This document shows, in pieces, positions 1,673-39,706 of a stretch of 40,778 nt of DNA (the stretch's first letter is position 1; every line of letters begins with the position of its first letter). The translations under genes and the position numbers were made by a program. The DNA comes from Acidobacteriota bacterium (GTDB lineage Bacteria > Actinomycetota > Acidimicrobiia > Spongiisociales > UBA5794). The DNA is taken from contig JADFQA010000029.1 of the NCBI GenBank assembly GCA_022562055.1, positions 1-40,778 on the forward strand, given 5' to 3'. A model generated the notes under the pieces. That model was not told the DNA's origin, ran no database searches, and saw nothing but the letters and a program-made list of their open reading frames with translations.

Positions 1673-2833
1673 CTACTCGGACCACTCGTTCAGCAGCGTG
1701 TCAGACAGGTGCGGTGTGTAGAGCGCCGGTTCGAGCAGAAACGAATCGTGGCCTTTGTCTGAATGCACGGTGATGCGACGCGCGGGGACATCCGCTAAAG
1801 CTAACAGCCGCATCAACTCGGACTGCTCCTCAGCATAGAAACACACATCAGAATCGATGGAGAAGACCATGTAGCGCTGATGTTTACACGCAGTGAACAG
1901 GTCCTCGAAACCGGCAACCTCGGCTTCACCAACCAGGTCGAACTGCTGCCAGGCAGACATCAGCCGGAGGTAACTGTTGGCGTCAAAACGTTTCACAAAT
2001 TTGGTGCCCTGATGCCACATGTACGACTCCAAGGGATGCTGAATCGTGTAAGTCCCCGGCCCCGCGCCACCCCTGACGATTTCCTCGCGCGCTCGTCGCT
2101 GCATTGCCTCCAACGAAACGAAAGCCTTATGACCAATCATCCTTGCTAGGCGAAGTCCGCTGTCCGGGTGCGGACCGTCGTAATAATCGCCACCTGCAAA
2201 GTCGGGATCGTTCTGGATTGCGTTGATCTGTTCAAAGTTGTGGATGATCTGCAACGGCGTCGGATTCGCACCCGCTGCAATGGGGATAACTGTCTCGACG
2301 AGGTCGGGGTACCGAGTGGCGAGCGACATTGCACAGACACCACCGGTGGAACCACCGACAACGGCGTGAAGGCGCTCGATGCCGAGATGACGGATGAGCT
2401 CCACCTGCGAATCGACGATGTCCGCAAGACCCACGTCTGGGAACGAACTGCCATACGGTTTCTCGGTCCGAGGGTTGATCGAAGCTGGCCCGGTCGACCC
2501 GTAACACCCCCCGAGGTAGTTGACACAAATAACAAAAAACCGGTCGGTGTCTAGAGCTTTTCCGGGACCAATAAAGGCGTCCCACCAACCATCGTGCATC
2601 TCCTCCACCCAGCGACCGTCAGTGCCGGCGACCTCAGTCGTCACACCAGCCGCATGGTGCGTGCCGGTAAGTGCATGAAACAAAAGCACACCGTTTGACT
2701 TGTCGACGTTCAGAGTACCGTACGTCTCGTACGCAAGCGTGACCTGGTCTAACGAACCACCCGCCCGTAACCGGAACGGATCAGCGGAGGATCCGAAGGT
2801 GAAATACTGGGTTGCCGTTTTGCCGATGCTCAT
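1673..2833 (-). CDS. metX: Homoserine O-acetyltransferase
   Basis: Alpha/beta-hydrolase-fold acyltransferase that acetylates L-homoserine, giving the substrate for the MetY enzyme encoded divergently. Seen: the nucleophile elbow GGSTGG with Ser162, Asp329 in SIDSDVCF, and His362 in SDKGHDSFL, which together make a complete catalytic triad. Length of 386 residues is normal. ATG 2833 is preferred over a TTG two codons upstream. A succinyl- rather than acetyl-CoA preference cannot be read reliably from the sequence, but actinobacterial MetX proteins are usually acetyltransferases. The SAM riboswitch lies upstream in the opposite orientation, so it controls metY and not this gene. Confidence 0.93.
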   Translation of the reverse strand: MSIGKTATQYFTFGSSADPFRLRAGGSLDQVTLAYETYGTLNVDKSNGVLLFHALTGTHHAAGVTTEVAGTDGRWVEEMHDGWWDAFIGPGKALDTDRFFVICVNYLGGCYGSTGPASINPRTEKPYGSSFPDVGLADIVDSQVELIRHLGIERLHAVVGGSTGGVCAMSLATRYPDLVETVIPIAAGANPTPLQIIHNFEQINAIQNDPDFAGGDYYDGPHPDSGLRLARMIGHKAFVSLEAMQRRAREEIVRGGAGPGTYTIQHPLESYMWHQGTKFVKRFDANSYLRLMSAWQQFDLVGEAEVAGFEDLFTACKHQRYMVFSIDSDVCFYAEEQSELMRLLALADVPARRITVHSDKGHDSFLLEPALYTPHLSDTLLNEWSE

Positions 2834-3003
2834 GTTCAACTCGTCTAGCCGGAGCGCTGAACCCGAACATTAACGCCGGGTCAGCCTCTCTCATGCCACC
2901 AACAGGATGCCGACCTTGACGATCCGTCTACAGCCACTAAGGTCCACGCAAGCTCAAGCAGCAAACGGATCATAAGGGAGAGCGCGCAAGCAAAATCTCG
3001 TAA

Positions 3004-4563
<1,560 letters not shown>

Positions 4564-4577
4564 ACCTGAATGCGTAT

Positions 4578-4612
4578 GGTGAGGGGTCCGCGTGCGATGC
4601 GGATCCCTCACC
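4578..4612 (+). terminator. Hairpin after metY
   Basis: A 14-bp stem (4578-4591 with 4599-4612, one G-U pair) and a 7-nt loop sits 14 nt after the metY stop. No T-tract follows, so it may be a weak or factor-assisted terminator or a 3'-end-stabilising structure. Confidence 0.6.
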
Positions 4613-4662
4613 TAGGTACCCGGCGTCTACGCTTGCAGCAATGAGTAACGCGGGGTCCACTG

Positions 4663-5235
4663 ATGGGCAAGACGTACGACAACATAACCCCGGCGATTGC
4701 CAGGTTCATCGCCAATCAGCCGATGTTCTTCGTTGCGACCGCACCCCTCGCCAAAGACGGTCTTGTGAACGTTTCCCCGAAGGCGCTCGACGGCACCTTC
4801 GTGGTCGTTGACGACCATCGGGTTGCGTACATCGATCTGATGGGATCAACAGGCGAAACCGTGGCTCACATCCGCGAGAACGGCCGCATCACAATTATGT
4901 TCAACTCGTTTACGGGTCCGGCACGCATCGTCCGACTGTATGGGCGGGCGACCTGGCATGAGCCCGGAGAGGTCGGTTTCGACGAACTCATCGGTAAGTT
5001 CCCCTACTTCCGGGGTACGCGGTCGATCATCGATGTGAGCGTTGACCGCATCGCAGACTCCTGCGGTTTCGGCGTGCCGAATATGACTCTCGAAAGCCAA
5101 CGCACTCAGCTCGACAAGTGGGCGCTCAAGCGTGACCGAACCGAGCTGAGCGAATACAAGGAAAACCACAACACCAGTCTGGACGGTCTCCCGATTCTTC
5201 GTCACCCTGAGAGACATATCGAGATCGCTGACTAG
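4663..5235 (+). CDS. Pyridoxamine 5'-phosphate oxidase-like flavin-binding protein
   Basis: A 190-residue split-barrel protein of the PNPOx-like superfamily, which binds FMN or F420. Seen: FIANQPMFFVATAPLAKDGL near the N-terminus, VNVSPKALDGTFVV, and a central strand IRENGRITIMFNSFTGPARIVRLYG split here as two short motifs, RITIMF and RIVRLYG. Relatives are annotated as general-stress or F420/FMN-dependent reductases; the substrate is unknown. The start at ATG 4663 gives the common MGKTY N-terminus. A TACGCT box at about 4628 suggests a transcript with a leader of about 22 nt. It stands alone between metY and a convergent oxidoreductase. Confidence 0.8.
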   Translation: MGKTYDNITPAIARFIANQPMFFVATAPLAKDGLVNVSPKALDGTFVVVDDHRVAYIDLMGSTGETVAHIRENGRITIMFNSFTGPARIVRLYGRATWHEPGEVGFDELIGKFPYFRGTRSIIDVSVDRIADSCGFGVPNMTLESQRTQLDKWALKRDRTELSEYKENHNTSLDGLPILRHPERHIEIAD

Positions 5236-5289: not shown

Positions 5290-7509
5290 CTACACGGTTG
5301 ACAGTGTCACCGGGACACCGTTGAGAGCTGCGTTGCCGGACCAGTCGTCCACCAGATTGTTCGATGTGAGGATGTTTAGATTCACCCCAGGTCGGCTCTC
5401 AGCAACACTGAGCCGGGTGCCCGCATACGAGTGGCCCCAGCCATGGGGAATCGACACAACGCCGGGCATGACGACATCGGTCACCTCGACCTCGACGATC
5501 AATTCGCCGCCTTCGCTCGTTACCTTTGCCTGGTCGCCGTCGGCAAGACCGTGTCTGGCAGCATCAGTCGGGTGGACCTGCACGGTGCAGCGGTTGTTTC
5601 CCTTGGTCAGAATGTCAAGGTTGTGCATCCACGAGTTGTTCGTCTTGAGATGTCGGCGGCCGATGAGGACGAGGCCTGGAGGGGGCTCGTTGAGATGATC
5701 GGCGAGCCGTGCAATGTCGGATGCGAACGTGGGCTCGGCGAGATCGATGGAACCCCAGGCGGTTTGCAGGAATCCGGGAAATCGAGGCTCCAACGCCCCT
5801 AAATCGAGTCCGTGAGGGTTATCGCTCAGCTTGGTGAGGTTCAACCCGTCGGCCACCGCGCCAAAACCGTCACCGTACGGACCTGTACGGAGCATTGCGT
5901 CGAGCACCCGATCGGCGGGACTGTCACCCGAGATCTGGTTCACAATTTCGAGAGGGTCCAATCCGCTCGCCGGAGATGCGTCGTTTTGGGTTGCCCGCGT
6001 CAACACGTTGAGTAGTGCGCCGTCGTAAACCATGGTGGGGTCCGCCCGGTGGTCGAATCCAGAAGCGATCAGTGTAAGACGTGCAAGGATCTCGTCATCA
6101 GTCGGGCGATCAACCTCAAGCAGCGACGGCGACCACTTTGCAACATTCCTCACCGACAGGCTGGTGAACACAAGGTCGTAGTGGCTCCTCTCCAGCGGGG
6201 ATCGCCCCGGCAGGATCACGTCAGCGTGCCGGGTGGTTTCGTTGAGATAGATGTCGAAACTCACCATGAAATCAAGAGCTTCAAGAGCCTCTTCGGTCTT
6301 GGTTGAGTCGGCTATCGAGAGCACTGGGTTACCTTGAAGCGTGATGAGCGCTCGGACTTGCCCCTTCCCAGGGCTGAGAATCTCCTCAGCCAGACACACC
6401 GTCGGAATCTCGCCGAGAACTTCCCTCCTCCCCGACACACGGCTATTCCAACGCCCAAACTTCCAACCACTGCCACCGGCCTGATCCCCGACGGGGCGGC
6501 CCGTGGCTGGCTTCGGAAACATCAGCCCACCGGGGCTGTCAAGGTTCCCAGTAATGATGGTGAGGGTCTCAGCCAGCCACGCGTTCACAGTTCCGAAACG
6601 GCTGGTGTGTGTCCCCATGCGCGCATACACGGCACCGGATGACGCCGACGCAAGATCCCGCGCGAATCGTTCGATGTCTTCCGACGCGATGCCTGTCGCT
6701 TTGGCGGCAAGATCGACGGTGTATTCGCGGATGAGTGTGTGAAACTCTTCAAGACCGCGAACATATGGCTCGACCGATCCCAGATCTACGAGGTCGTTGT
6801 CGAAGATCACGTTGCACATTGCGGCGAGTAAGTAGGCATCGGTGCCAGGCCTGATCGGGTGGTGCTCGGTCACGTGGGCTGCCGTTTCTGACCGCCGCGG
6901 GTCGATGAGCACGACGGTTCCGCCACGTTCTCGGATGGCGTCGAGGCGATCTGTAAACCCGGGGGCTGTGCACAGTGACCCGTTCGACGCCGCCGGGTTC
7001 GCCCCGATCATCAGCAGGTACCGCGTGCGATCGAGATCGGGCACACTGAACGACGCCGGTGACCCGTACATGAGACCACTCACGACGTGTTTTGGCATCT
7101 GATCGACGGTCGACGCCGTGAACACGTTGCGGGTACCCAAAGCGTGGATGAGCACCCGTCCGAAAATGCCTGCCGCGAGGTTGTGCACGTTGGGGTTGCC
7201 GAGGTATACCGCAACCGAGTTTCGGTCTGCGTCAAGATGCTTCCCGAGGCCAACGGCGATGGCATCGAACGCCTCATCCCAAGTTGCCTCGACATGCACG
7301 CCGTCTTTCTTGATCAACGGCGTTGTCAACCGATCCGGGTCAGCCTGGAGTTGCTTGAGGGTTGATCCCTTGGGACATATGAAGCCCTTGGAGAAGGGGT
7401 CGTCCATGTCACCGCGGATGCGCATAACAGTGTCGTCGCGTACTGTGATCTCTAGACCACACGTCGCCTCACACAGCGGGCAGGTTCTGAATGCGGTCCG
7501 GTCGGTCAT
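5290..7509 (-). CDS. Molybdopterin-dependent oxidoreductase (DMSO reductase superfamily)
   Basis: A 739-residue cytoplasmic-looking enzyme with no signal peptide. Cys10, Cys13, Cys17 and Cys45 bind a [4Fe-4S] cluster (CPLCEATCG ... FICPKG). Molybdopterin-binding segments include LMIGANPAASNG, VLIDPRRSETAAH, ALITLQGNPVLS and a C-terminal barrel with RRHLKTNNSWMHN and VHPTDAARHGLADGD. The usual Cys/Sec ligand position reads HVVSGLMYGSP, with no Cys or in-frame TGA, so it is not a standard formate dehydrogenase. Start ATG 7509 is preferred because GAGAGGA lies just upstream; the frame extends to 7527. No electron-transfer subunit or cofactor gene is adjacent. Substrate unknown. Confidence 0.85.
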   Translation of the reverse strand: MTDRTAFRTCPLCEATCGLEITVRDDTVMRIRGDMDDPFSKGFICPKGSTLKQLQADPDRLTTPLIKKDGVHVEATWDEAFDAIAVGLGKHLDADRNSVAVYLGNPNVHNLAAGIFGRVLIHALGTRNVFTASTVDQMPKHVVSGLMYGSPASFSVPDLDRTRYLLMIGANPAASNGSLCTAPGFTDRLDAIRERGGTVVLIDPRRSETAAHVTEHHPIRPGTDAYLLAAMCNVIFDNDLVDLGSVEPYVRGLEEFHTLIREYTVDLAAKATGIASEDIERFARDLASASSGAVYARMGTHTSRFGTVNAWLAETLTIITGNLDSPGGLMFPKPATGRPVGDQAGGSGWKFGRWNSRVSGRREVLGEIPTVCLAEEILSPGKGQVRALITLQGNPVLSIADSTKTEEALEALDFMVSFDIYLNETTRHADVILPGRSPLERSHYDLVFTSLSVRNVAKWSPSLLEVDRPTDDEILARLTLIASGFDHRADPTMVYDGALLNVLTRATQNDASPASGLDPLEIVNQISGDSPADRVLDAMLRTGPYGDGFGAVADGLNLTKLSDNPHGLDLGALEPRFPGFLQTAWGSIDLAEPTFASDIARLADHLNEPPPGLVLIGRRHLKTNNSWMHNLDILTKGNNRCTVQVHPTDAARHGLADGDQAKVTSEGGELIVEVEVTDVVMPGVVSIPHGWGHSYAGTRLSVAESRPGVNLNILTSNNLVDDWSGNAALNGVPVTLSTV

Positions 7510-7635: not shown

Positions 7636-9438
7636 TTAGAACGCGGTATCCGACAGCGTCATGAGAGAACCATCCTCGGTCTCAGCGGCTTCCCTGCGCA
7701 ACCGGGCCTTTGGCAGCGCATCTCTAACAAAGAACCTCGCGGACGCAACCTTGCCTTCATAAAACACCTTGTCGGTGTCAGACGCCCCGTCGATCGCATC
7801 CAGCGCGATACCGGCATGGCGGATGAGCAGCCACCCAATGACCACTTCTGACAGCGATTCGAGCAACGCGTTGGTGTGGAGACCGGTCTTGTAGATCTCA
7901 GTCGGGTTTTCCTGCGATGCCATGGTATGGGCAACCAACACACCGAGATGCTGCTGTGTGTCTTCGAGCGCAGCTCCCAACAGCGCCCGTTCGGCTTCGA
8001 GCCCGTCGTGTCCGCCCTTGACAACCTCAAGGATCTCGTTGACCAGGTTGGTCAGGGTGGCACCTCGGTCGCGGACGATCTTGCGGAAGAACAGATCGAG
8101 CGACTGGATTGCGGTCGTGCCTTCGTAGATCGTGTCAATCTTGGCGTCGCGGAGATACTGCTCCATTGGGTAGTCACGGGTGTATCCCGAGCCACCGAAC
8201 ACCTGCAGCGACTGCGCAAGCAGCTCATAGGCCTTTTCCGAGCAGTATCCCTTCACCATCGGCAACAGAAAGTCGTTGCGCTTTGCGTAGTCTTCGTTGT
8301 CCGGTTTGGCGAGCATGTGATCCGAGAGCGATGCCGTGTAGAGAACCAGCGCCCGCATGCCCTCCGAGTAGGCCTTTTGCAGCATGAGCAATCTGCGAAC
8401 GTCGGGGTGCCGAATGATTTCGACACGAGCGGCAGATTTGTCTTTTGCGTTAGCGAGATCGGCGCCTTGTACGCGCACCTTGGCGTATTCGAGAGCGTTG
8501 AGGAACCCGGTCGACAACGTCGCGGCAGACTTCGACCCGATAAGCATGCGGGCATCTTCGATGACCTTGAACATCTGCCGAATGCCCTCGTGAACACCAC
8601 CAACGAGGTACCCGACAGCGGGGTTATCGACCCCAAAGGTCAGCTCGCAAGTCGTTGACCCGCGAATCCCCATCTTGTCCTCAAGGTTGGTGGCGTAGAC
8701 ACCATTGCGCTCACCGAGCGATCCATCAGCGTTAACGAGAAATTTCGGGACGATAAACATCGACAGACCCTTGGTACCCGATGGCCCACCTTCACGGCGG
8801 GCGAGGACAAGGTGGATGATGTTTTCGCTGAGGTCGTGCTCGCCCGAGGTAATGAACCGTTTCACACCCTCGATGTGATAGGTGTTGCCTTCGACGTGAA
8901 TCGCCTTTGCGGTGCCGGCGCCGACGTCCGAACCTGCCTGAGGCTCGGTGAGAACCATCGAGGCCGCCCACTTCTTTTCGATCATTCGAACTGCGAATCG
9001 CTCACGCTGCTCGTCGGTGCCTTCAGCAGCGATTACAGCAGCCATCAGCGCCCCGGATGCGTACAGGTAGACACCCGGGTTGGCGCCTACCAGCATCTCC
9101 TGGCTGGCCCACCGCACCGAGGGCGGGGCTCCGAACCCGCCGAGATCTTTGGGAAGGCCGAGCATGTCCCAGCCGCCGTCATAGTAAGCGGCCATTGACT
9201 TTTTCACCGAGGCGGGAAGTTCAACCTCACCATCGACAAGGGACAGCTTGATCCGGTCCGCATCAACAAACGACGCTGCAAACTCGTCTTCGGAAAGTCG
9301 ACGAACTTCGCGCAGTACATCCATGACAGTGGCGCGGTCCATATCGTCAAATGGCGCAGCACCGAGGAGCTCCTCGACGTTGTTCGCCTCGAAGAGGTTG
9401 AACTCGATATCCCGTAAATTCGCCTTGTAGTGGCCCAT
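7636..9438 (-). CDS. Acyl-CoA dehydrogenase, FadE5-like
   Basis: A 600-residue FAD enzyme catalysing the first step of fatty-acid beta-oxidation, longer than the usual 380-400 because of a C-terminal extension seen in mycobacterial FadE5-type proteins. Seen: AASMVLTEPQAGSDVG (FAD and substrate loop), FGGSGYTRDYPMEQYLRDAK, and IDTIYEGTTAIQ with the catalytic base Glu439. The N-terminus MGHYKANLRDIEFNLFE is typical of the subgroup. Start ATG 9438 has AAGGGA upstream. It is transcribed divergently from a TetR gene 130 bp away, which likely represses it in response to acyl-CoA. Chain-length specificity cannot be judged. Confidence 0.92.
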   Translation of the reverse strand: MGHYKANLRDIEFNLFEANNVEELLGAAPFDDMDRATVMDVLREVRRLSEDEFAASFVDADRIKLSLVDGEVELPASVKKSMAAYYDGGWDMLGLPKDLGGFGAPPSVRWASQEMLVGANPGVYLYASGALMAAVIAAEGTDEQRERFAVRMIEKKWAASMVLTEPQAGSDVGAGTAKAIHVEGNTYHIEGVKRFITSGEHDLSENIIHLVLARREGGPSGTKGLSMFIVPKFLVNADGSLGERNGVYATNLEDKMGIRGSTTCELTFGVDNPAVGYLVGGVHEGIRQMFKVIEDARMLIGSKSAATLSTGFLNALEYAKVRVQGADLANAKDKSAARVEIIRHPDVRRLLMLQKAYSEGMRALVLYTASLSDHMLAKPDNEDYAKRNDFLLPMVKGYCSEKAYELLAQSLQVFGGSGYTRDYPMEQYLRDAKIDTIYEGTTAIQSLDLFFRKIVRDRGATLTNLVNEILEVVKGGHDGLEAERALLGAALEDTQQHLGVLVAHTMASQENPTEIYKTGLHTNALLESLSEVVIGWLLIRHAGIALDAIDGASDTDKVFYEGKVASARFFVRDALPKARLRREAAETEDGSLMTLSDTAF

Positions 9439-9493
9439 GATGCGGTCCCTTGCTTCCGGTAGCAGCGATGCTACCGAGTGTTGTTCGTAATTT

Positions 9494-9521
9494 GAGTATA
9501 CGCTCCATTTTGGAGTATGCG
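9494..9521. promoter_or_regulatory. Candidate TetR operator between fadE and tetR
   Basis: GAGTATACG at 9494-9502 recurs as GAGTATGCG at 9513-9521 (19-bp period), and CTCCA-ttt-TGGAG forms a small dyad between them at 9503-9515. It is the only AT-rich, repeat-bearing stretch in the divergent gap. Binding by the adjacent TetR protein is inferred. Confidence 0.5.
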
Positions 9522-9569
9522 ATCAAGATTCGGCTTTTCGGCTAGCCTGCCCGCACAGGGAAGGAACCC

Positions 9570-10121
9570 ATGGCGAGATATCAGGCCGGTCTTAGAACCG
9601 AGGCCCGCATCGTTGAGGCGACGCGAGCCCTCCTAGGCGAAGTCGGCCTGGAAGGCACCACTCTTAAGGCAATATGCGAGCAAGCCTCGGTCCAAGCCGG
9701 CTCGTTCTACAACATATTTGCCTCCAAAGAGGAGGTCATCGTGCGGGTCGTTAGCGAGGCGATCGCTGCTGTGGCTCCCGACGCCGCTTCGGATGCGGAT
9801 GTCAGCGACCTGGTTGAGGCGTATATCCAGTTCATCACCGGCGACCCGACGCTGGCTGCCGTGTACACCGAGATCGCAATCGCGGGCGCCCTCAACAACG
9901 GGCCCATGCGCGACAAGATTGCAAGACACCACAGGCAACGGTTGGAGATATTCTCAGCAGCGGTGCGACGATCGGTACCCGGGATCACACCGAACGATGC
10001 CATCACTCGAGCCGAGCTGCTGCTCGCCGCCCTCCACGGGTTGGGGTTCCACCTGACACTAGAACCCGATTTCGATTTCGCCGGTCACGCCCGCAGAGTC
10101 GCAACGTTCACTGTCTCCTAA
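9570..10121 (+). CDS. TetR family transcriptional regulator
   Basis: A 183-residue one-component regulator. The N-terminal helix-turn-helix reads RIVEATRALLGEVGLEGTTLKAICEQASVQAGSFYNIFASKEEV across residues 12-53 (quoted here only by its conserved ends RIVEATRALL and FYNIFASKEEV). The rest is an all-helical ligand domain. RBS GAAGGAA precedes ATG 9570. Divergence from the acyl-CoA dehydrogenase suggests a FadR-type acyl-CoA sensor. Its last codons and 3' flank recur at about 13998-14066 as a decayed copy. Confidence 0.88.
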   Translation: MARYQAGLRTEARIVEATRALLGEVGLEGTTLKAICEQASVQAGSFYNIFASKEEVIVRVVSEAIAAVAPDAASDADVSDLVEAYIQFITGDPTLAAVYTEIAIAGALNNGPMRDKIARHHRQRLEIFSAAVRRSVPGITPNDAITRAELLLAALHGLGFHLTLEPDFDFAGHARRVATFTVS

Positions 10122-10134
10122 ACAGAATTCCCTC

Positions 10135-10182
10135 GTCTTGGCGTCCATCTGTGCACGACGGTGCACGATTGGACACCGAGAC
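10135..10182. repeat. Imperfect dyad repeat after tetR
   Basis: Arms 10135-10156 and 10161-10182 pair over 22 positions with five mismatches around a 4-nt loop; the inner GTGCAC is itself palindromic. The right arm carries GTGCACGATTGGACACC, close to the GCACGATTGGACGCC arm of the perfect dyad at 34958-35010, indicating one repeat family. It could double as the tetR terminator. Confidence 0.65.
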
Positions 10183-10288
10183 AAGGATAGGTAGGCGATA
10201 CCGACACCACTCTGCCTTAACGGTGGCTTGTGTCATACTGGTTGTGGTTGATACTCGTAGCGTCATCACTTCGAAGGGGGTCGCCACA

Positions 10289-10957
10289 GTGTCGGGCTCG
10301 AAACCAGGGGTACACGACGGCGAAACGATGCGCCGGTCGCTGCAAGAACCGTCTGCGTTCTGCGACGTCTACAGCCGCCACTTCCACCACATATTCGCGT
10401 ATTGCGTTGCACACGTCGGACGAACCCGTGCAGAAGATGTTGCGCAGGACGTATTCCTCGTTGCGTTTACTCATCGCGCCGCTTTCGAGTTCGACAGGGA
10501 CGACGCCCGGCCGAGGCTCTGTGGGATCGCTCGGCATCTCTGCAGTCGCCACTTCCGCAGCCGACACCCTATCCAGCTCTTGACGCGCAAGGTCCCGCCC
10601 CCCACGGTTGGCGCGTCCGACACAGCGGTCGTCGAGCGCGTGGACGCACTGCGCCTTCGAATTCCCCTCTCGGCAGCAATATCCGATCTGCCACCGTCCC
10701 TGGAGGAAACACTGATCCTGCACGCGGTGAACGACCTGGCCCACAAGGAAATCGCTGCCCTGCTCGGTATCAAGGTAGGAACCGTAAAGTCCCGACTCTC
10801 GCGAGCGAAGGCATGTATCCGCAAGTGTTGGGACAGCGAAACCCCAGAAGCGGCCCCAAGCCGAAGCGCCGCTATGGAACCCAAAACGGTTCATGTGGCA
10901 ATGCACAGTGAGTATCGCGAACGCGATACCTGGAACACAGAAGGGGAAAGCCTGTGA
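10289..10957 (+). CDS. ECF-type RNA polymerase sigma factor
   Basis: A 222-residue group 4 sigma factor. Region 2 runs through FCDVYSRHFHHIFAYCVAHVG and AEDVAQDVFLVAF (about residues 25-65); region 4 contains LPPSLEETLILHAVNDLAHKE and IAALLGIKVGTVKSRLSRAK (about 138-178). These directly recognise -10 and -35 elements. GTG 10289 is chosen because AAGGGGG lies 9 nt upstream; the longer open frame has no support. A perfect dyad lies in its last codons, and the stop overlaps a downstream GTG (GTGA). No anti-sigma gene is recognisable next to it; the genes that follow encode exported proteins, its likely targets. Confidence 0.87.
   Translation: MSGSKPGVHDGETMRRSLQEPSAFCDVYSRHFHHIFAYCVAHVGRTRAEDVAQDVFLVAFTHRAAFEFDRDDARPRLCGIARHLCSRHFRSRHPIQLLTRKVPPPTVGASDTAVVERVDALRLRIPLSAAISDLPPSLEETLILHAVNDLAHKEIAALLGIKVGTVKSRLSRAKACIRKCWDSETPEAAPSRSAAMEPKTVHVAMHSEYRERDTWNTEGESL
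10912..10929. promoter_or_regulatory. Perfect dyad at the 3' end of the sigma gene
   Basis: GTATCGCG-AA-CGCGATAC gives two perfect 8-bp arms with a 2-nt centre, ending 25 bp before the sigma stop. It may be an operator or RNA hairpin for the downstream envelope genes, or a coincidence of coding sequence. Confidence 0.4.
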
Positions 10958-11151
10958 AAACGTTTCAAGGACCTCTGCGGTTCGCGTCCTCCATCACGAC
11001 ACTTCCGAGGACCACGCCTACTAGACACGCCCTCCTTCGAGCTGCGAGTCCAATAACCCACAGTCTCGCAAGGAGGGCTCACCCAATCACACCATTCCAC
11101 CAGGGACAACGTCCCCGGTTGTCACAGCTAGGCGCAAACCGGCTTCGATAG
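10954..11151 (+). CDS. Doubtful 65-residue ORF coupled to the sigma gene
   Basis: A GTG overlaps the sigma stop by 4 nt (GTGA) with GGGGAAAG just upstream, an arrangement typical of translational coupling and of sigma/anti-sigma pairs. The predicted product is basic, rich in Thr, Arg and Pro, and has no membrane segment or zinc-binding ZAS motif, so it does not look like an anti-sigma factor. It also runs through a strong hairpin at 11029-11078, which argues that this stretch is an untranslated leader. No family recognised. Confidence 0.25.
   Translation: MKTFQGPLRFASSITTLPRTTPTRHALLRAASPITHSLARRAHPITPFHQGQRPRLSQLGANRLR
11029..11078. terminator. Long hairpin between the sigma gene and amidase
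   Basis: GCCCTCCTT (11029-11037) pairs with AAGGAGGGC (11070-11078), and GCGAG (11044-11048) with CTCGC (11065-11069), leaving a one-sided 6-nt bulge and a 16-nt loop. No T-tract follows. AAGGAGG in the right arm resembles a ribosome binding site, so it could also be an RNA switch, processing site or attenuator about 125 nt before the amidase start. Confidence 0.5.
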
Positions 11152-11203
11152 CGGAGGAGTCACATGTTCTCTCCAACGTCATCCCACCGGAAGGAGCGTC
11201 CGC

Positions 11204-11905
11204 ATGAAAACGTCGTTACTAGTCGTCGCTTTCATCGCCTCCTTTCTGATCAAAGCAGCAGCGGCGTCGGCACCTGCCGGGGCCACACAGGGAGGAACCT
11301 TCAACTATTTTCCGTCAAACGGGTGGAACACCTACAAAGTATTTCTGTCGCCGGCGTCCCATAGCGGGGCCAACACGGGTTGCAATGGGTACGTCGAGGA
11401 CGGGTTGACCACCGGTGCCGTCGACATTGCCAGGGAAGCGGCCTCGGGTTGGGGTACCGATTTACTAAACCGACACTATTATGTACGGGTCCGGTGGGGA
11501 GTTTCGGTTACCACGAAGGTCTCGGACTCGAACGCGTGGGGGGCGGATATGCATATAGCTATGCATTCGAACGCGCAAGCGCAGAACTGTGGTGCAGGGA
11601 CGTCCTACGGCGGCACTTCGGTGATCTACCAATACAACTCGCAGAAGTCCCTAGCGGCCCAGTTCAAAACTCGAATTGGGCCGCCAAGTCCCGGCACCAA
11701 CGACAAGGCATGTCATACGCCCACATGTTCCCAGTACAACTCGCTCCACGAGCTCACTGCTACGAACGCCAAAGCTGCGTATCTAGAAATGGAGTATCAC
11801 ACGTACCAGCTTGGTGTCGATTGGCTTCTGAATAGGACATGGCAATGGCGCATCGGATGGGCGGTAGACAAATACTGGGGATACCCGAGGAACCTGATCT
11901 ATTGA
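11204..11905 (+). CDS. Secreted N-acetylmuramoyl-L-alanine amidase, Amidase_3-like
   Basis: A 233-residue exported zinc hydrolase predicted to cut the amide bond between muramic acid and the stem peptide. Signal peptide: MKTSLLVVAFIASFLIKAAA with cleavage near residues 20-25. Likely zinc ligands are His53 (ASHSG), Glu65 (YVED) and His121 in HIAMHSNA; Glu195 in YLEMEYHT is the likely catalytic acid. The usual GHGG motif is altered to SHSG, so it is a divergent member. RBS AAGGAG precedes ATG 11204. Six cysteine-containing loops are not seen, but four Cys (60, 129, 170, 175) could form disulfides. First exported gene after the ECF sigma factor. Confidence 0.72.
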   Translation: MKTSLLVVAFIASFLIKAAAASAPAGATQGGTFNYFPSNGWNTYKVFLSPASHSGANTGCNGYVEDGLTTGAVDIAREAASGWGTDLLNRHYYVRVRWGVSVTTKVSDSNAWGADMHIAMHSNAQAQNCGAGTSYGGTSVIYQYNSQKSLAAQFKTRIGPPSPGTNDKACHTPTCSQYNSLHELTATNAKAAYLEMEYHTYQLGVDWLLNRTWQWRIGWAVDKYWGYPRNLIY

Positions 11906-11952
11906 CAGGTGTTCCTGGCTTTTCTGATCACCCTCGAGAAAGGAATTTTGTT

Positions 11953-12834
11953 ATGAACCATTTTGGAAAGTATTTGGCCGTAATAGGCGTCCTAACGGTC
12001 GGCCTCTTGTCTGGTGTCGCAGCGACGTCTACTCAGGCGGTGGCGGAACTACCTCGCCCGATGGACGCGTATGTGGGATTTCGACACAACCCAGAGCTTG
12101 AGATAGCGATATTCAACAACGAAGAGACCCGCCGCCAGGCGAGCATCCAGGAGTGCATGCAGCGGCTCGGATTGGAGTACGAAGTGGTTCCGGCGGACTT
12201 CAATACGTTCGCATCGAACAACCAAGACGCGAGGTTCTATGGACTTGTGGACCCCCTCAGCCGCCGAAATCAGGAAAGGGTGATTGAAATCCAAGAGGAT
12301 CCGAACATTGTCTACGCCCGATCCCTCGGCGGAGTCGATGAGAGTAGCTATTTCGAGGCATTGTTTGGAGAGGGCTGGGAATCTGAAGATCCGGACACCG
12401 ACGCCTATAACGCAAGCTGCACAGGCGAAGCGTACCTTACGATCCCGGGATTGAGCGCAGAGGTGACCGAACTGAGGGCGGCATACGATGAAGGATTACG
12501 CTCCGAGTTCGAAACGAACGAAGAGGTCCGGTCCGCGGTGACGGGATGGGTGAGTTGCGTTGGAGCTGCAGGAGTGTCGGCTGCCGAACCCGGCGACATG
12601 ATGGCCCTGGTTGATGACGCGGTCTCGGCGGCCCAGCTTGACGATGGAATGATCGATCGGGATGAGATCAACCAGCTGTCCGACCTCGAGGAAAGACTTT
12701 TCGCAATCGACCAGAACTGCAATAGGGACCTCAGGGTCGCAAGCGCCGATGCAATTACCAGATTCGAGAGGGCGTTTATCGCCTCCAACGCCGCGGACCT
12801 GGAAACCTACCGGGCCGAAAAGTGGCAGCGTTAG
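11953..12834 (+). CDS. Secreted protein of unknown function
   Basis: A 293-residue exported protein. The N-terminus has one lysine, a hydrophobic stretch (YLAVIGVLTVGLLSGVAA) and a likely cleavage after TQAVA near residue 31. The mature part is acidic and helix-prone, with four cysteines (Cys68 in IQECMQRLG, then NASCTGEA, WVSCVGAAG and QNCNRDL) that could make two disulfides outside the cell. RBS AAAGGA precedes ATG 11953; the open frame extends into the amidase gene but that start has no signal peptide. No family recognised. Position suggests co-expression with the amidase and lipoprotein. Confidence 0.75.
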   Translation: MNHFGKYLAVIGVLTVGLLSGVAATSTQAVAELPRPMDAYVGFRHNPELEIAIFNNEETRRQASIQECMQRLGLEYEVVPADFNTFASNNQDARFYGLVDPLSRRNQERVIEIQEDPNIVYARSLGGVDESSYFEALFGEGWESEDPDTDAYNASCTGEAYLTIPGLSAEVTELRAAYDEGLRSEFETNEEVRSAVTGWVSCVGAAGVSAAEPGDMMALVDDAVSAAQLDDGMIDRDEINQLSDLEERLFAIDQNCNRDLRVASADAITRFERAFIASNAADLETYRAEKWQR

Positions 12835-13496
12835 CCGTGCAGTTCCGATGGGTGTTGTTGGCGTTCAGTGCGGGGATCGTATTGGCAGCATGTTCCGACA
12901 CGCCGTCGGTGTCCACGTCGCTGGGAGTAGTCGAAACGACTGCTGTTCCGACGGCGACGACAGCAACGTCACCTGTCACGAATACTACATCCCCGCCAAT
13001 CGCGACAACTTCGGCGCCGACCGTGACGACCACAACTTTGCCACCGCCTGTGACGTCCACGACGATCGACTACGTGGCACGGGCTGACCTTATCCGCAGG
13101 TTGGATGCGATCACTGGACTTGTCCCCGATTTAGAGGGGGTCGAGTCCTATGGCTGGGATCCGTCCCACGGCGCTCCGTACTCCTCAATTGCGTACGACC
13201 GCGACAATCAGATCTATTCGATTTCTGCGTTCACTTCCACTACCGAGACGAATGGCTACCGCCAGGTTCTGGGCCTCAGGGTGCAAGTGCCTGAGATCGT
13301 TGAACACATCGATCTCGGGGGTCACGAGGTTGCGTTCTTCAGTCTGCAGCATGGTGAGGGCGACCCAGTCGTGCAGTATGCCCTCGCCTACAACATATGC
13401 GGTATGTATAACGTGTGGGGCACGACCTTCGCGTCTGATCCAGGGCAGATGCTGGACGATTTGGCGGATGTTCTCAACAGGATCGACTGCGGCTGA
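12822..13496 (+). CDS. Thr-rich lipoprotein of unknown function
   Basis: A 224-residue lipoprotein whose GTG start lies inside the end of the preceding gene (13-nt overlap), so translation is coupled. The signal has a lipobox LAAC at residues 21-24, with Cys24 as the lipid-anchored residue. Residues 25-80 are a Thr/Ser/Pro-rich linker, probably extended across the wall and possibly glycosylated. The C-terminal globular domain (about 81-224, from DYVARADLIRRLD to VLNRIDCG) is not recognised; it has two Cys. Likely anchored on the outer face of the membrane, in the same operon as the amidase. Confidence 0.78.
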   Translation: MAALAVQFRWVLLAFSAGIVLAACSDTPSVSTSLGVVETTAVPTATTATSPVTNTTSPPIATTSAPTVTTTTLPPPVTSTTIDYVARADLIRRLDAITGLVPDLEGVESYGWDPSHGAPYSSIAYDRDNQIYSISAFTSTTETNGYRQVLGLRVQVPEIVEHIDLGGHEVAFFSLQHGEGDPVVQYALAYNICGMYNVWGTTFASDPGQMLDDLADVLNRIDCG

Positions 13497-13520
13497 GCCG
13501 AGGAGTTAGATGTGACAGCC

Positions 13521-13540
13521 GACAGCGACGTTGCTGTCGT
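13521..13540. terminator. Short hairpin after the lipoprotein gene
   Basis: CGACAGC (13521-13527) and GCTGTCG (13534-13540) make a perfect 7-bp stem with a 6-nt loop, 25 bp after the lipoprotein stop. No T-tract. Confidence 0.4.
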
Positions 13541-13552
13541 GGAGGGGTCAGA

Positions 13553-13966
13553 ATGAGTAAGCACGGTTGGGTGCGGTGGCGCCGTTGCGGTTGACCGACG
13601 GGCAAGAGACTGCTGCTTTCGCCAGCAAGAAGACGATCGCGCATATGGATCAGAAGAATTTGTACGGGTATGGGGCTCTGGTCGCCAACGGCCTCGCCAT
13701 AATCGTATACCTCGTCACGGTCACCCGAGAAGAGGAACGCTCCACACTCTTGAGGTCGCCCGTAGATAGCGGCGGCGTCCGGTATCATCGGTCTCAGTGC
13801 AATTGGTGCTTCGGCCCGAAGCATCGACACGCGTCCTCAGGCTTTCGTGACTTCGACTGTGCTCGCCGCCGTGACGGGGCTGCTGGGCATATTGAGCTTC
13901 GGTTTCATACTCCTTGGACCGGGCGAACTGACCGATCTTGCATTCCGAGAGGTCATTCAGGTCTAG
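13553..13966 (+). pseudogene. Broken small membrane protein gene
   Basis: GGAGGGG precedes ATG 13553, but that frame stops after 13 codons. Coding character continues in the next frame with a membrane segment YGYGALVANGLAIIVYLVTV (about 13660-13720), then returns to the first frame between about 13745 and 13785 with ASGIIGLSAIGASARS and a second hydrophobic stretch VTGLLGILSFGFILLG, ending at TAG 13964-13966. Two frameshifts are therefore needed to read one protein of about 137 residues. It may be the decayed last gene of the envelope operon or a victim of base errors. No family recognised. Confidence 0.5.
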
Positions 13967-13997
13967 ACCGTCAACCGAGCCGCGACCGGTGGGGTCC

Positions 13998-14040
13998 CCG
14001 GTGACGCTCCCGCAGAGTCGCGATATTCACCGTCTCATAG
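13998..14040 (+). pseudogene. Remnant of a tetR 3' end
   Basis: CGCAGAGTCGCGATATTCAC and what follows would encode RRVAIFTVS-stop, against RRVATFTVS-stop at the end of the intact TetR gene at 10121. Similarity also covers about 10 bp upstream (with one inserted base) and continues about 25 bp beyond the stop codon in both copies, to 10145 and 14066, where both reach TTGGCGTC. The rest of the gene is gone. This implies an old duplication or recombination involving the tetR 3' end. Confidence 0.55.
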
Positions 14041-14069
14041 ACGACCTCTTCCCTTGTGTTGGCGTCGTG

Positions 14070-14831
14070 CTACTTCGGCGCCATCCGGATGGCGCCGTCC
14101 ATACGAACCGTCTCACCATTCATGTAGGAATGCGTTACCAACACGTGCACCAGCTCGGCAAACTCATCGGGTCTCCCGAGGCGCTTTGGATGTGGGACCG
14201 ACTCTCCGAGCGAAATTCGGGCCGGCTCGGGCAAGGCCGCTAGTAGTGGAGTGTCGATGAGCCCTGGCGCAATGGTGTTCACGCGGATACCAACGGAGCT
14301 GAGGTCTCGAGCGACCGGAAGTGTCAGTCCCACGATTCCGCCCTTTGACGCCGAGTACGCCGCCTGCCCGATCTGGCCGTCGTATGCCGCAACCGACGCG
14401 GTGTTGACGATCGCTCCCCGCTCGTTGTCGGCCGCGGGTTCGTTACGCGCCATGGCGACCGCTGCCAGCCGGATGCAGTTGAAGGTCCCGACAAGGTTGA
14501 TCGCGATCACTTTGCGGAAGTAACCAAGGTCGTGCGGCGTGCCATCACGGTTAACAGTCCTCGCAACAGCACCGATGCCGGCGCAGTTGACGAGGACCCT
14601 CAGGTCTCCCATCTCGACTGCAATGTCGATAGCGCTCTGCACCTCGTCCGCATCTGTCACATCAGCATGCACAAACGCTCCCCCAACCTCCTCCGCAACC
14701 GTCTCTCCGAATTCGTCCTGCATATCAATGATGACGACCTGCATCCCCGCAGCCGAAAGCCTGCGCACCGTTGCAGCCCCCAGACCAGACGCTCCGCCGG
14801 TAACAATCGCTGATGACCCCTGAATGTCCAC
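14070..14831 (-). CDS. Short-chain dehydrogenase, 3-hydroxyacyl-CoA dehydrogenase type 2-like
   Basis: A 253-residue NAD(H)-dependent SDR. Seen: the dinucleotide motif TGGASGLG near residue 12, NCAG (about 90), an active-site serine in [10 protein letters not shown] and the catalytic Tyr/Lys in YSASKGG. The segment around [20 protein letters not shown] and the C-terminal [16 protein letters not shown] closely follow 17beta-HSD10/3-hydroxyacyl-CoA dehydrogenase type 2. Start GTG 14831 has AGGAG 7 nt upstream; the upstream frame to 14909 lacks support. Likely a beta-oxidation enzyme, though SDR substrate assignments are often wrong. A perfect 20-bp palindrome (14077-14096) lies in its last codons. 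Confidence 0.85.
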
Positions 14832-14952
14832 TCGTTCTCCTGACTTCGTAGTTCGATTACGAAAATAGACAGTACCGAGGCACCCGTGCCTCGTGCGACC
14901 CGGGCGCAACGCGAGTCACGCCCATCATGTCGCTCGGTCTTCCAGCATCGGA

Positions 14953-14958
14953 TACAGT
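14953..14958 (+). promoter_or_regulatory. -10 box for leaderless LLM gene
   Basis: TACAGT followed by exactly 7 nt and the ATG at 14966. This decides the start: an upstream in-frame ATG at 14927 would not be on this transcript. Confidence 0.5.
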
Positions 14959-14965
14959 TGGCTCC

Positions 14966-15900
14966 ATGGCAAAACGATCACACCGTCTTGAGTATGGGCT
15001 CCAAACATCGGGGACCTACGAAGAGCTCCTTCGCGCTGCCCTGTGGGCGGAGGAACGCGGCCTCGTTGCGTTTGCGGTCCCCGACCACTACCTCATGTCG
15101 CTGAATGCCGACGCTGAAGCTCCCGCATTCGACGGCCTCGTTCAGCTTGCAGGGTTGGCTCGCGAAACCACAACGATCGAGCTGTCGATACTCGTGTCGC
15201 CGATCACATTCCGCCACCCTCTGTGCTGTACAAAACCGCGGTGACAATCAGCGACATGTCGGGTGGCCGTTTCAAGTTGGGCATCGGCACCGGATGGCTC
15301 GACCGAGAACATGAGATTTACGGGATCCCCTATCCAGAGATGACCGAACGTTTTGCGCGTCTCGAAGACGCCCTTGCCTACATTTCCGCTGCGCTCGCAA
15401 ACAGAGCGCACGACGGCAAGTTCTACTCGCTCGAAGCGTTCAACCATCTGCCGCAGCCAGCTGGCGGAATCCCGCTGCTGATCGGTGGCATGGGAGCGGT
15501 GAAAACGCCGCGGCTTGCGGGGACGTACGCCGCAGAGTTCAACTGCTACCCCGGGTCGCCCGAAGCGTTCCGGGCAAAGATCGCGGTCGCCTGCAAAGCC
15601 GCGGCTGCCGCCGGAAGATTGCCCGACGACATGATGATATCGACGTCCGGTGCGGTGATCGCTGCCCAGACCCAGCCCGAATATGACGAACTGCTTGCAT
15701 CCGAGGCCGCCAAGGCCGGGATCACAACCGATGAACTCGAGGCGCACTTGACGGTGCGCAACACGCCGCGAGGCACGTTCCAACAGATTCGTCACCAACT
15801 CGGCACCTTCGCCGACGCTGGCGTCACCCGCTTCTATTTGCAGACGGGCAACAAGAACCTGGACGAAGTTGGCGAACTCCTCGACGCGATCGCTATCTGA
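14966..15900 (+). pseudogene. LLM-class F420-dependent oxidoreductase, one frameshift
   Basis: Bacterial-luciferase-like TIM-barrel flavoprotein of the type that uses coenzyme F420 or FMN. Residues from MAKRSHRLEYGLQTSGTYEE through LSILVSPITFRHP end at 15220; the protein then continues one frame over with VLYKTAVTISDMSGGRFKLG and GIGTGWLDREHEIYGIP. A two-base codon at 15221-15222 shows that one base is missing. Read through, the product is about 311 residues, a normal length, and everything else is intact, so a base error or a very recent mutation is likely. Leaderless -10 box TACAGT supports ATG 14966. Confidence 0.8.
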
Positions 15901-38713: not shown

Positions 38714-39706
38714 CTAGGCAGAGGCTTCAAGGTCCATCACGTACTGGTCTGCGGCGGCAGTGCAGATCACACGAAGGTTCTTCACGCCCCGTTTGATGTT
38801 GGCACGCATCATCGATTCGAGCGTGCCGTCGGATACCGCGGGATATAGCGCACTACCGGGGCACGAGGTAGCAGACGCCCAGTCTTTGTGGCCGCGTACC
38901 TCGCTCGGATCGACATTGTATGTGACCGCGGCCCACGCCAACAGTTCGGCCATCGCGGCGAGTTGCGCAACCGGGATGCCCTGCTCGTCAAAGTTCCCCT
39001 CAGCAGCGATCAGAAAATGGCCGGTGGGGTCGTAACTCGTTGCGGTATCGCCAACAGCGGTAATCGGACGACCCTCATATACGTTGCCTAGCGAGTCGAC
39101 GAGGAAGTGGTACGCCAAGTCGGGCCAGCCCTTGCCAAGATGAAACTTCTGGTGCTGGCGGGCCCGTGCCGGCGCCCGAGAGGCGCTTGAAAGGACGGCC
39201 GCGGTGTGATGCACGGTGAATCGCTCAATCGTGTGGCTGGTGAATTCGCCGAGATTTGGGTTGGCGCTCCATGCAGCTTTGCACAACACCGGCAACTCCC
39301 CCGCAACAGTCACGAAGGCGGCGAACTGCGAAGTCGAGTCCGACGGCGGCGAAGTCGTCGAGGTCGGAGCACTGGTCGTGGTGGTGGTCCCTGTCGACGA
39401 TGTTGATGTCGAGGGCGGGGTCGTTGTTGTGTTGGTCGTCGAGGTAGGCGCGACAGATGTCGTTGGCGGTGAAGACGAACTCGTTGTGTCATCGGGTGCT
39501 ACCGACGGCGTCGTGTCGGCGGGCACGGAACTACTAGAGGATGCCGACGACGCACTGGCGGCCAAAGACGTCGACGAACTCGCCGCGACCGAGGAGGAGT
39601 CGGCATCGTTCTCCTTGAAAAGTCGGGTCCATCCCAACACCGCGACCGCACCGGCGCCGGCGCCACCAAGGAGGCCCTTGAGGAACTGCCGGCGCGAGGA
39701 ACTCAT
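38714..39706 (-). CDS. Tat-exported peptidoglycan-recognition amidase (Amidase_2/PGRP)
   Basis: A 330-residue exported zinc amidase. SSRRQFLKGLLGGAGAGAV is a twin-arginine signal. Residues about 36-127 are a long Ser/Thr/Pro linker. The PGRP domain follows: FTVHHTAAVL with the first zinc histidine, YHFLVDSLGNVYEGRP, and GHKDWASATSCPGSALY with the second histidine and the cysteine, so the His-His-Cys site is complete. It cleaves the lactyl-peptide amide bond, probably in the cell wall. The gene after it ends 3 nt upstream of this start, so the two are co-transcribed. Confidence 0.9.
   Translation of the reverse strand: MSSSRRQFLKGLLGGAGAGAVAVLGWTRLFKENDADSSSVAASSSTSLAASASSASSSSSVPADTTPSVAPDDTTSSSSPPTTSVAPTSTTNTTTTPPSTSTSSTGTTTTTSAPTSTTSPPSDSTSQFAAFVTVAGELPVLCKAAWSANPNLGEFTSHTIERFTVHHTAAVLSSASRAPARARQHQKFHLGKGWPDLAYHFLVDSLGNVYEGRPITAVGDTATSYDPTGHFLIAAEGNFDEQGIPVAQLAAMAELLAWAAVTYNVDPSEVRGHKDWASATSCPGSALYPAVSDGTLESMMRANIKRGVKNLRVICTAAADQYVMDLEASA

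Follow-up and report, generated by a model that had tools for sequence, protein, structure and literature searches.

A divergent amidase and a four-cysteine protein behind an ECF sigma factor gene on a small islet: a candidate accessory cell-wall cassette in Acidimicrobiia

Which genes belong together when an ECF sigma factor gene is followed by genes for a wall amidase and two further exported proteins, and is the sigma factor part of the unit? The question was raised by a stretch of DNA of 40,778 nt (hereafter the window), which is the complete contig C29 of an uncultured actinobacterium whose genome comprises 2.93 Mb in 83 contigs. On its plus strand, a TetR gene (9570-10121) is followed by genes for an ECF sigma factor (10289..10957), an exported divergent Amidase_3 enzyme (11204..11905), an exported four-Cys protein (11953..12834) and a Thr-rich lipoprotein (12822..13496, alternative start 12837), and then by a membrane-protein gene that reaches 13966 and is probably broken, being open over 13567-13966 only in two different frames. 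A preliminary description had read the sigma factor, the amidase, the four-Cys protein and the lipoprotein as one wall module, and all four open reading frames (ORFs) that it reported were present at their positions. Elsewhere in the window, a SAM riboswitch was found at 3019-3128 (69.3 bits against 44.4), with no other known RNA in the Rfam search, and the minus strand (38714-39706) encodes an exported protein with a Ser/Thr-rich linker, whose C-terminal half resembles by eye a peptidoglycan-recognition-type amidase domain. The PADLOC models returned no family for the four proteins and matched no known anti-phage defence system.

The assignment of the second gene product as a divergent zinc amidase held in the Pfam search (Amidase_3, E 3.6e-6), and since its score was barely above the curated cut-off (27.6 bits against 27), the protein is a truly divergent member of this family. 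A class profile built from six amidases (A1) matched CwlV (PDB 1jwq) at E 4.1e-6, placing the window enzyme in the same fold family as the Amidase_3 N-acetylmuramoyl-L-alanine amidases, such as CwlV and clostridial-type phage endolysins. Among 12 aligned sequences, H121 and E195 were invariant and E65 was nearly so; these residues correspond to the Glu/His ligand and catalytic Glu positions of CwlV, and cleavage of peptidoglycan is predicted from the family and from their conservation. On the other hand, the window enzyme differs from those amidases not only in its marginal score, but also in the displaced first His of the classical DPGH motif (SPASH, H53) and in the pairing or fusion with a four-Cys protein observed in its family. 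This His is replaced by Gln in the amidases of G001:C84 and G002:C75, as in a clostridial-type phage endolysin. The amidase profile matched two viral contigs with a clostridial-type endolysin at 28%, and a search of plasmids with the window amidase (P0002) returned one record at 31%.

The product of the next gene agreed with its earlier portrayal as an unknown exported protein: it has Cys at positions 68, 156, 202 and 256 and none other, its N-terminus looks by eye like a signal peptide, and Pfam, NCBIfam and PHROGs all lacked a family scoring above cut-off. The A1 search revealed 11 amidase loci in 8 of the 395 genomes of the class, and a four-Cys gene adjoined the amidase gene (six loci) or was fused to it (one) in 7 of the 11, which are spread over several families of the class. 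It lay directly after the amidase gene, on the same strand, in the window, G001:C84, G002:C75, G294:C22, G339:C185 and G339:C36, while in G351:C1 both domains were found in one ORF of 764 aa. The four-Cys proteins of G294 and G339 were recognised by a profile (A2) built without them. Because relatives repeat the pairing, the two genes do not stand together by chance, and the real unit is the amidase plus the four-Cys protein rather than the four-gene set. The wall-module proposal is supported for this pair, recurrent and once fused, but by the refuting condition of the preliminary description it fails for the four genes as one system: no ECF sigma gene was detected at the other six loci of the pair, and relatives of the four-Cys protein mostly occur without an amidase. 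The promoter-like element of the sigma factor, described below, nevertheless links its family to similar genes for exported proteins. The same amidase family has a GerMN-type partner instead of a four-Cys one in the remaining 4 of the 11 loci (G001:C265, G002:C89, G007:C58 and G119:C2). Pfam Germane was above cut-off for the G119 partner (33.9 bits against 23) and below it for that of G002:C89 (19.0), and the G001 and G007 partners were assigned through alignment only. The G119 amidase protein itself has a partner-like stretch (33%, E 3.4e-6). Literature searches found nothing joining GerMN with Amidase_3, nor Acidimicrobiia, amidase and sigma factor.

The genomic placement of the cassette was addressed by comparison with a sister genome (G002). 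There, on contig C77 (L147), the gene order continues from a TetR gene 85% identical to that of the window to the same downstream genes with no module between them, so that the block of about 10122-14069 is absent at the same place. The L147 counterpart of window 7636-10119 is 2587-5073, and that of window 14070-15891 is 5535-7351. The extra stretch is flanked by imperfect direct repeats on the plus strand (73 aligned positions, 76.7% identical). The left one (10078..10145) comprises the TetR 3′ end and the start of the following palindrome, and the right one (13995..14066) repeats the 3′ end of TetR, final codons and stop codon included. With the empty place and the repeats, the block is an islet-like insertion. 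Its GC content is ordinary (57.9% against 59.3%), and no recombinase was seen within about 10122-14069. The gene beside the G001 cassette (PIG-L-type, by reading) had its best match in the window's own genome on another contig (C7), and therefore the cassette occupies different places in the two genomes. Similar palindromes follow genes, sometimes at contig ends, at window ~10133-10180, L057 1942-1991, L058 7353-7402 and L061 9185-9222, and look like terminators or dispersed repeats.

The sigma factor itself was readily recognized, with regions 2 and 4 only (Pfam Sigma70_r4_2, E 4.1e-14; Sigma70_r2, E 1.7e-6; NCBIfam sigma70-ECF, 53.9 against a cut-off of 42.9). As had been claimed, no anti-sigma gene lies beside it, its neighbors being TetR upstream and the amidase cassette downstream. 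The window was the sole one of the seven amidase/four-Cys loci with a detected adjoining ECF sigma gene, two of the other six (G001:C84 and G002:C75) lying near a contig end on one side. The two closest sigma relatives, both at contig ends (G052:C75, L058; G002:C72, L057), carry at their 3′ ends a 57-nt element that is also present in the window (10874..10930, plus strand; 80-87% to the L057 and L058 copies). The element is read in a different frame in the window, where the C-terminal tail of the sigma factor is accordingly in another frame than in these relatives. Over 769 bp (L057 537-1305, L058 4581-5342), the two contigs are 94% identical, although they were binned in different families, which points to recent transfer or mis-binning, and they may therefore be weak independent witnesses. 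L058 carries two further copies of the element. Its first copy is followed by genes for a small Cys-bearing exported protein, a CMxxxG lipoprotein and MFP, ATPase and permease components, and after its third copy come genes for a second small exported protein and for a four-Cys protein. Among the exported-protein genes that such elements precede near related sigma genes, some have a four-Cys-type lipoprotein gene after them. The long pattern of the element was found as a single copy in the window's own genome.

Moreover, the core of the element, GGAACCC-N16-SAATNC (GGAACCC-N16-CAATGC at 10876-10904 of the plus strand), gave 11 exact matches in five genomes against one for the reversed control. 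In G052, all six matches had the start of an exported- or lipoprotein-type ORF within about 200 nt, and so had the match of G007:C69, placed just after a related sigma gene and an anti-sigma-like gene; export was judged by eye from the N-termini. Two matches each came from the window's own genome (window and C19) and from G002 (C14 and C96); no exported protein follows those of C19, C14 and C96, which look like chance. A GGAAC-type –35 block is typical of ECF promoters, and the 57-nt element is read as a promoter that would be recognized by the sigma family of the window. An integron-like recombination site was also considered as the meaning of the repeated element, but is not preferred: the copies of G007 and G052 keep the outer blocks (GGAACCC and SAATNC) and differ in the spacer, and ORFs for exported proteins come next. 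The small hairpin of the element also brought a putative role as structured RNA into consideration. With the ECF sigma regulons for envelope functions, the window sigma shares the restriction to regions 2 and 4 and the GGAAC-type –35 block, but it differs from them in having no adjoining anti-sigma gene and in that the element ends its own gene and is repeated before exported-protein units in relatives. As a separate observation, L100 1-6126 (G007:C69) holds an array round another ECF sigma gene, with small exported proteins followed by CMxxxG lipoproteins and a 44-nt repeat occurring twice before exported-protein genes.

In the window, transcription of the amidase gene from the element is putative. 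No other aligned copy is as diverged in its –10 half as the window element (CAATGC), and the amidase start lies 299 nt from the element. Between them, at the position where relatives carry an exported-protein gene, there is a 65-codon GTG ORF (10954..11151, plus strand) with no signal peptide seen, perhaps the remnant of such a gene, as well as a strong plus-strand hairpin (11029..11078), a possible terminator or leader, in a region (10958-11203) that folds at –87 kcal/mol (z –5.19). It is conceivable, although on the whole doubtful, that sigma gene and cassette are adjacent by insertion history only, the amidase having its own promoter after the hairpin and no sigma control. The diverged –10, the hairpin, the ORF in the place of an exported gene, the shifted frame of the sigma tail and the failure to detect the sigma gene at the other six loci would all fit this explanation. 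Nevertheless, the sigma core domains are intact, the sigma gene, the element and the cassette lie within one insertion, and the related sigma locus L058 carries similar cargo, with a four-Cys protein among it.

The lipoprotein is the least conserved member of the cassette. It presents a lipobox by eye (LAAC, Cys24) and a linker in which Thr, Ser and Pro make up 66% of the residues and Thr alone 21 of 58, in line with its initial description as Thr-rich, and it matched no curated family above cut-off. The reported overlap of its start with the preceding gene stands for the GTG at 12822, which lies inside that gene, and disappears with the other possible start, the GTG at 12837. The order amidase, four-Cys protein, lipoprotein was also found in G001, in G002 (with two consecutive lipoproteins) and in G294, whose lipoprotein was GerMN-like in BLAST (E 2e-6), not in Pfam. 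The searches with the window lipoprotein (P0004) were blurred by Thr-rich linkers, 63 of the 119 genomes being matched. When score and matched range were considered, relatives of its folded part were accepted only in G066, G052:C20 (directly 3′ of a four-Cys gene) and G052:C26, and no similarity to a G002 lipoprotein was detectable. Structures predicted singly for the four-Cys protein (P0003) and the lipoprotein had pLDDT values of only 41.0 and 41.2, respectively.

A rival reading is a bacteriocin-like attack module, in which the amidase would be a secreted lytic effector, the four-Cys protein or the lipoprotein its immunity protein, and the small exported proteins near related sigma genes further effectors, each with its own lipoprotein. 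The patchy distribution (8 of the 395 genomes), the islet-like insertion, the pairs of small exported protein and lipoprotein near related sigma genes, and the low within-genus identity of the amidase (45-46%) and the four-Cys protein (29-30%), against 85% for the neighboring TetR, are consistent with attack. However, an immunity protein would hardly be expected to be fused to its amidase, as one four-Cys domain is. No bacteriocin family fitted the small proteins, and no PADLOC match was obtained. This explanation is considered unlikely. The L058 locus resembles lactococcin 972-type bacteriocin loci in combining small exported proteins with ABC genes, and TIGR03608 was the best model name for its ATPase, but with 135.3 bits this ATPase stays below the cut-off of 254.85, and the small proteins of the locus match no family. 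Neither the bacteriocin model nor the export ATPase model of lactococcin 972 was above cut-off in the window or L058, and a literature search found nothing joining it with an ECF sigma factor.

A broader view of the four-Cys family was obtained with a 12-row profile (A4), which matched 80 of the 395 genomes at E 1e-5 or better, the loci used to build it matching by construction. The neighborhoods of 61 loci, taken mainly from the top of the A4 list together with earlier loci and thus not a random sample, held 76 four-Cys ORFs at E 1e-10. A MacAB-like gene (MFP, ATPase or permease) lay directly downstream of 33 of these ORFs, an amidase was directly upstream of or fused to 7, and an ECF-sigma-like ORF was within 6.5 kb of 7. 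The transporter operon is therefore the commonest setting seen and the amidase setting a special case. No MFP, ATPase or permease gene lies beside the four-Cys gene of the window, whose module differs in this respect from the MacAB-like operons adjoining its relatives. Neither viral contigs nor plasmids yielded a match to P0003, no solved structure was matched by profile A2 or A3 below E 0.07, and nothing joining MacB, Acidimicrobiia and lipoprotein was found in the literature. Maintenance of the producer's own wall, with the amidase trimming that wall as part of an envelope-stress regulon and four-Cys proteins acting as periplasmic helpers of MacAB-like transporters and hydrolases alike, would suit these transporter neighbors, one of whose MFPs carries a peptidoglycan-binding domain, and the GerMN-type partners of the amidase elsewhere, but is improbable for a cassette that is patchy, fast-changing and islet-borne, unlike housekeeping genes.

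We modestly favor the explanation that the locus is an accessory cell-wall cassette on a small islet, with an amidase and its dedicated four-Cys partner behind the ECF sigma factor of an exported-protein regulon. This reading draws on the pairing in 7 of the 11 amidase loci, the conserved E65, H121 and E195, the promoter-like element that two sigma relatives share and that recurs ahead of operons for exported proteins, and the insertion shown by the empty place in G002:C77 and the direct repeats. According to it, the exported amidase would cut peptidoglycan, and the four-Cys protein, judging from the pairing and the fusion, would be a dedicated subunit that places or controls the enzyme. The lipoprotein may be a variable membrane-anchored third member, serving as anchor or guard. 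The sigma family appears to act on genes for exported proteins through GGAACCC-N16-(C/G)AAT promoters, and the copy with which the sigma gene ends probably drives the cassette. Counting against this reading are the lack of a detected ECF sigma gene beside the other six cassettes, the diverged –10, the 299-nt gap and the hairpin; the displaced first His, the four-Cys relatives mostly lacking an amidase and the possible non-independence of L057 and L058 also weigh against it. Far more tentatively, and with doubts of our own, the ECF sigma factor could be imagined to drive promoter-tagged exchangeable cassettes, each with an exported effector (a small Cys protein or a wall amidase) and a cognate four-Cys partner, which would be islet-mobile, compete at the cell wall and represent an undescribed actinobacterial system.

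A testable promoter code can be offered for a subfamily of ECF sigma factors that appear to target secreted proteins and lipoproteins. Moreover, a large unnamed family of exported four-Cys proteins acquires a defined biochemical partner through the single natural fusion with a peptidoglycan amidase.
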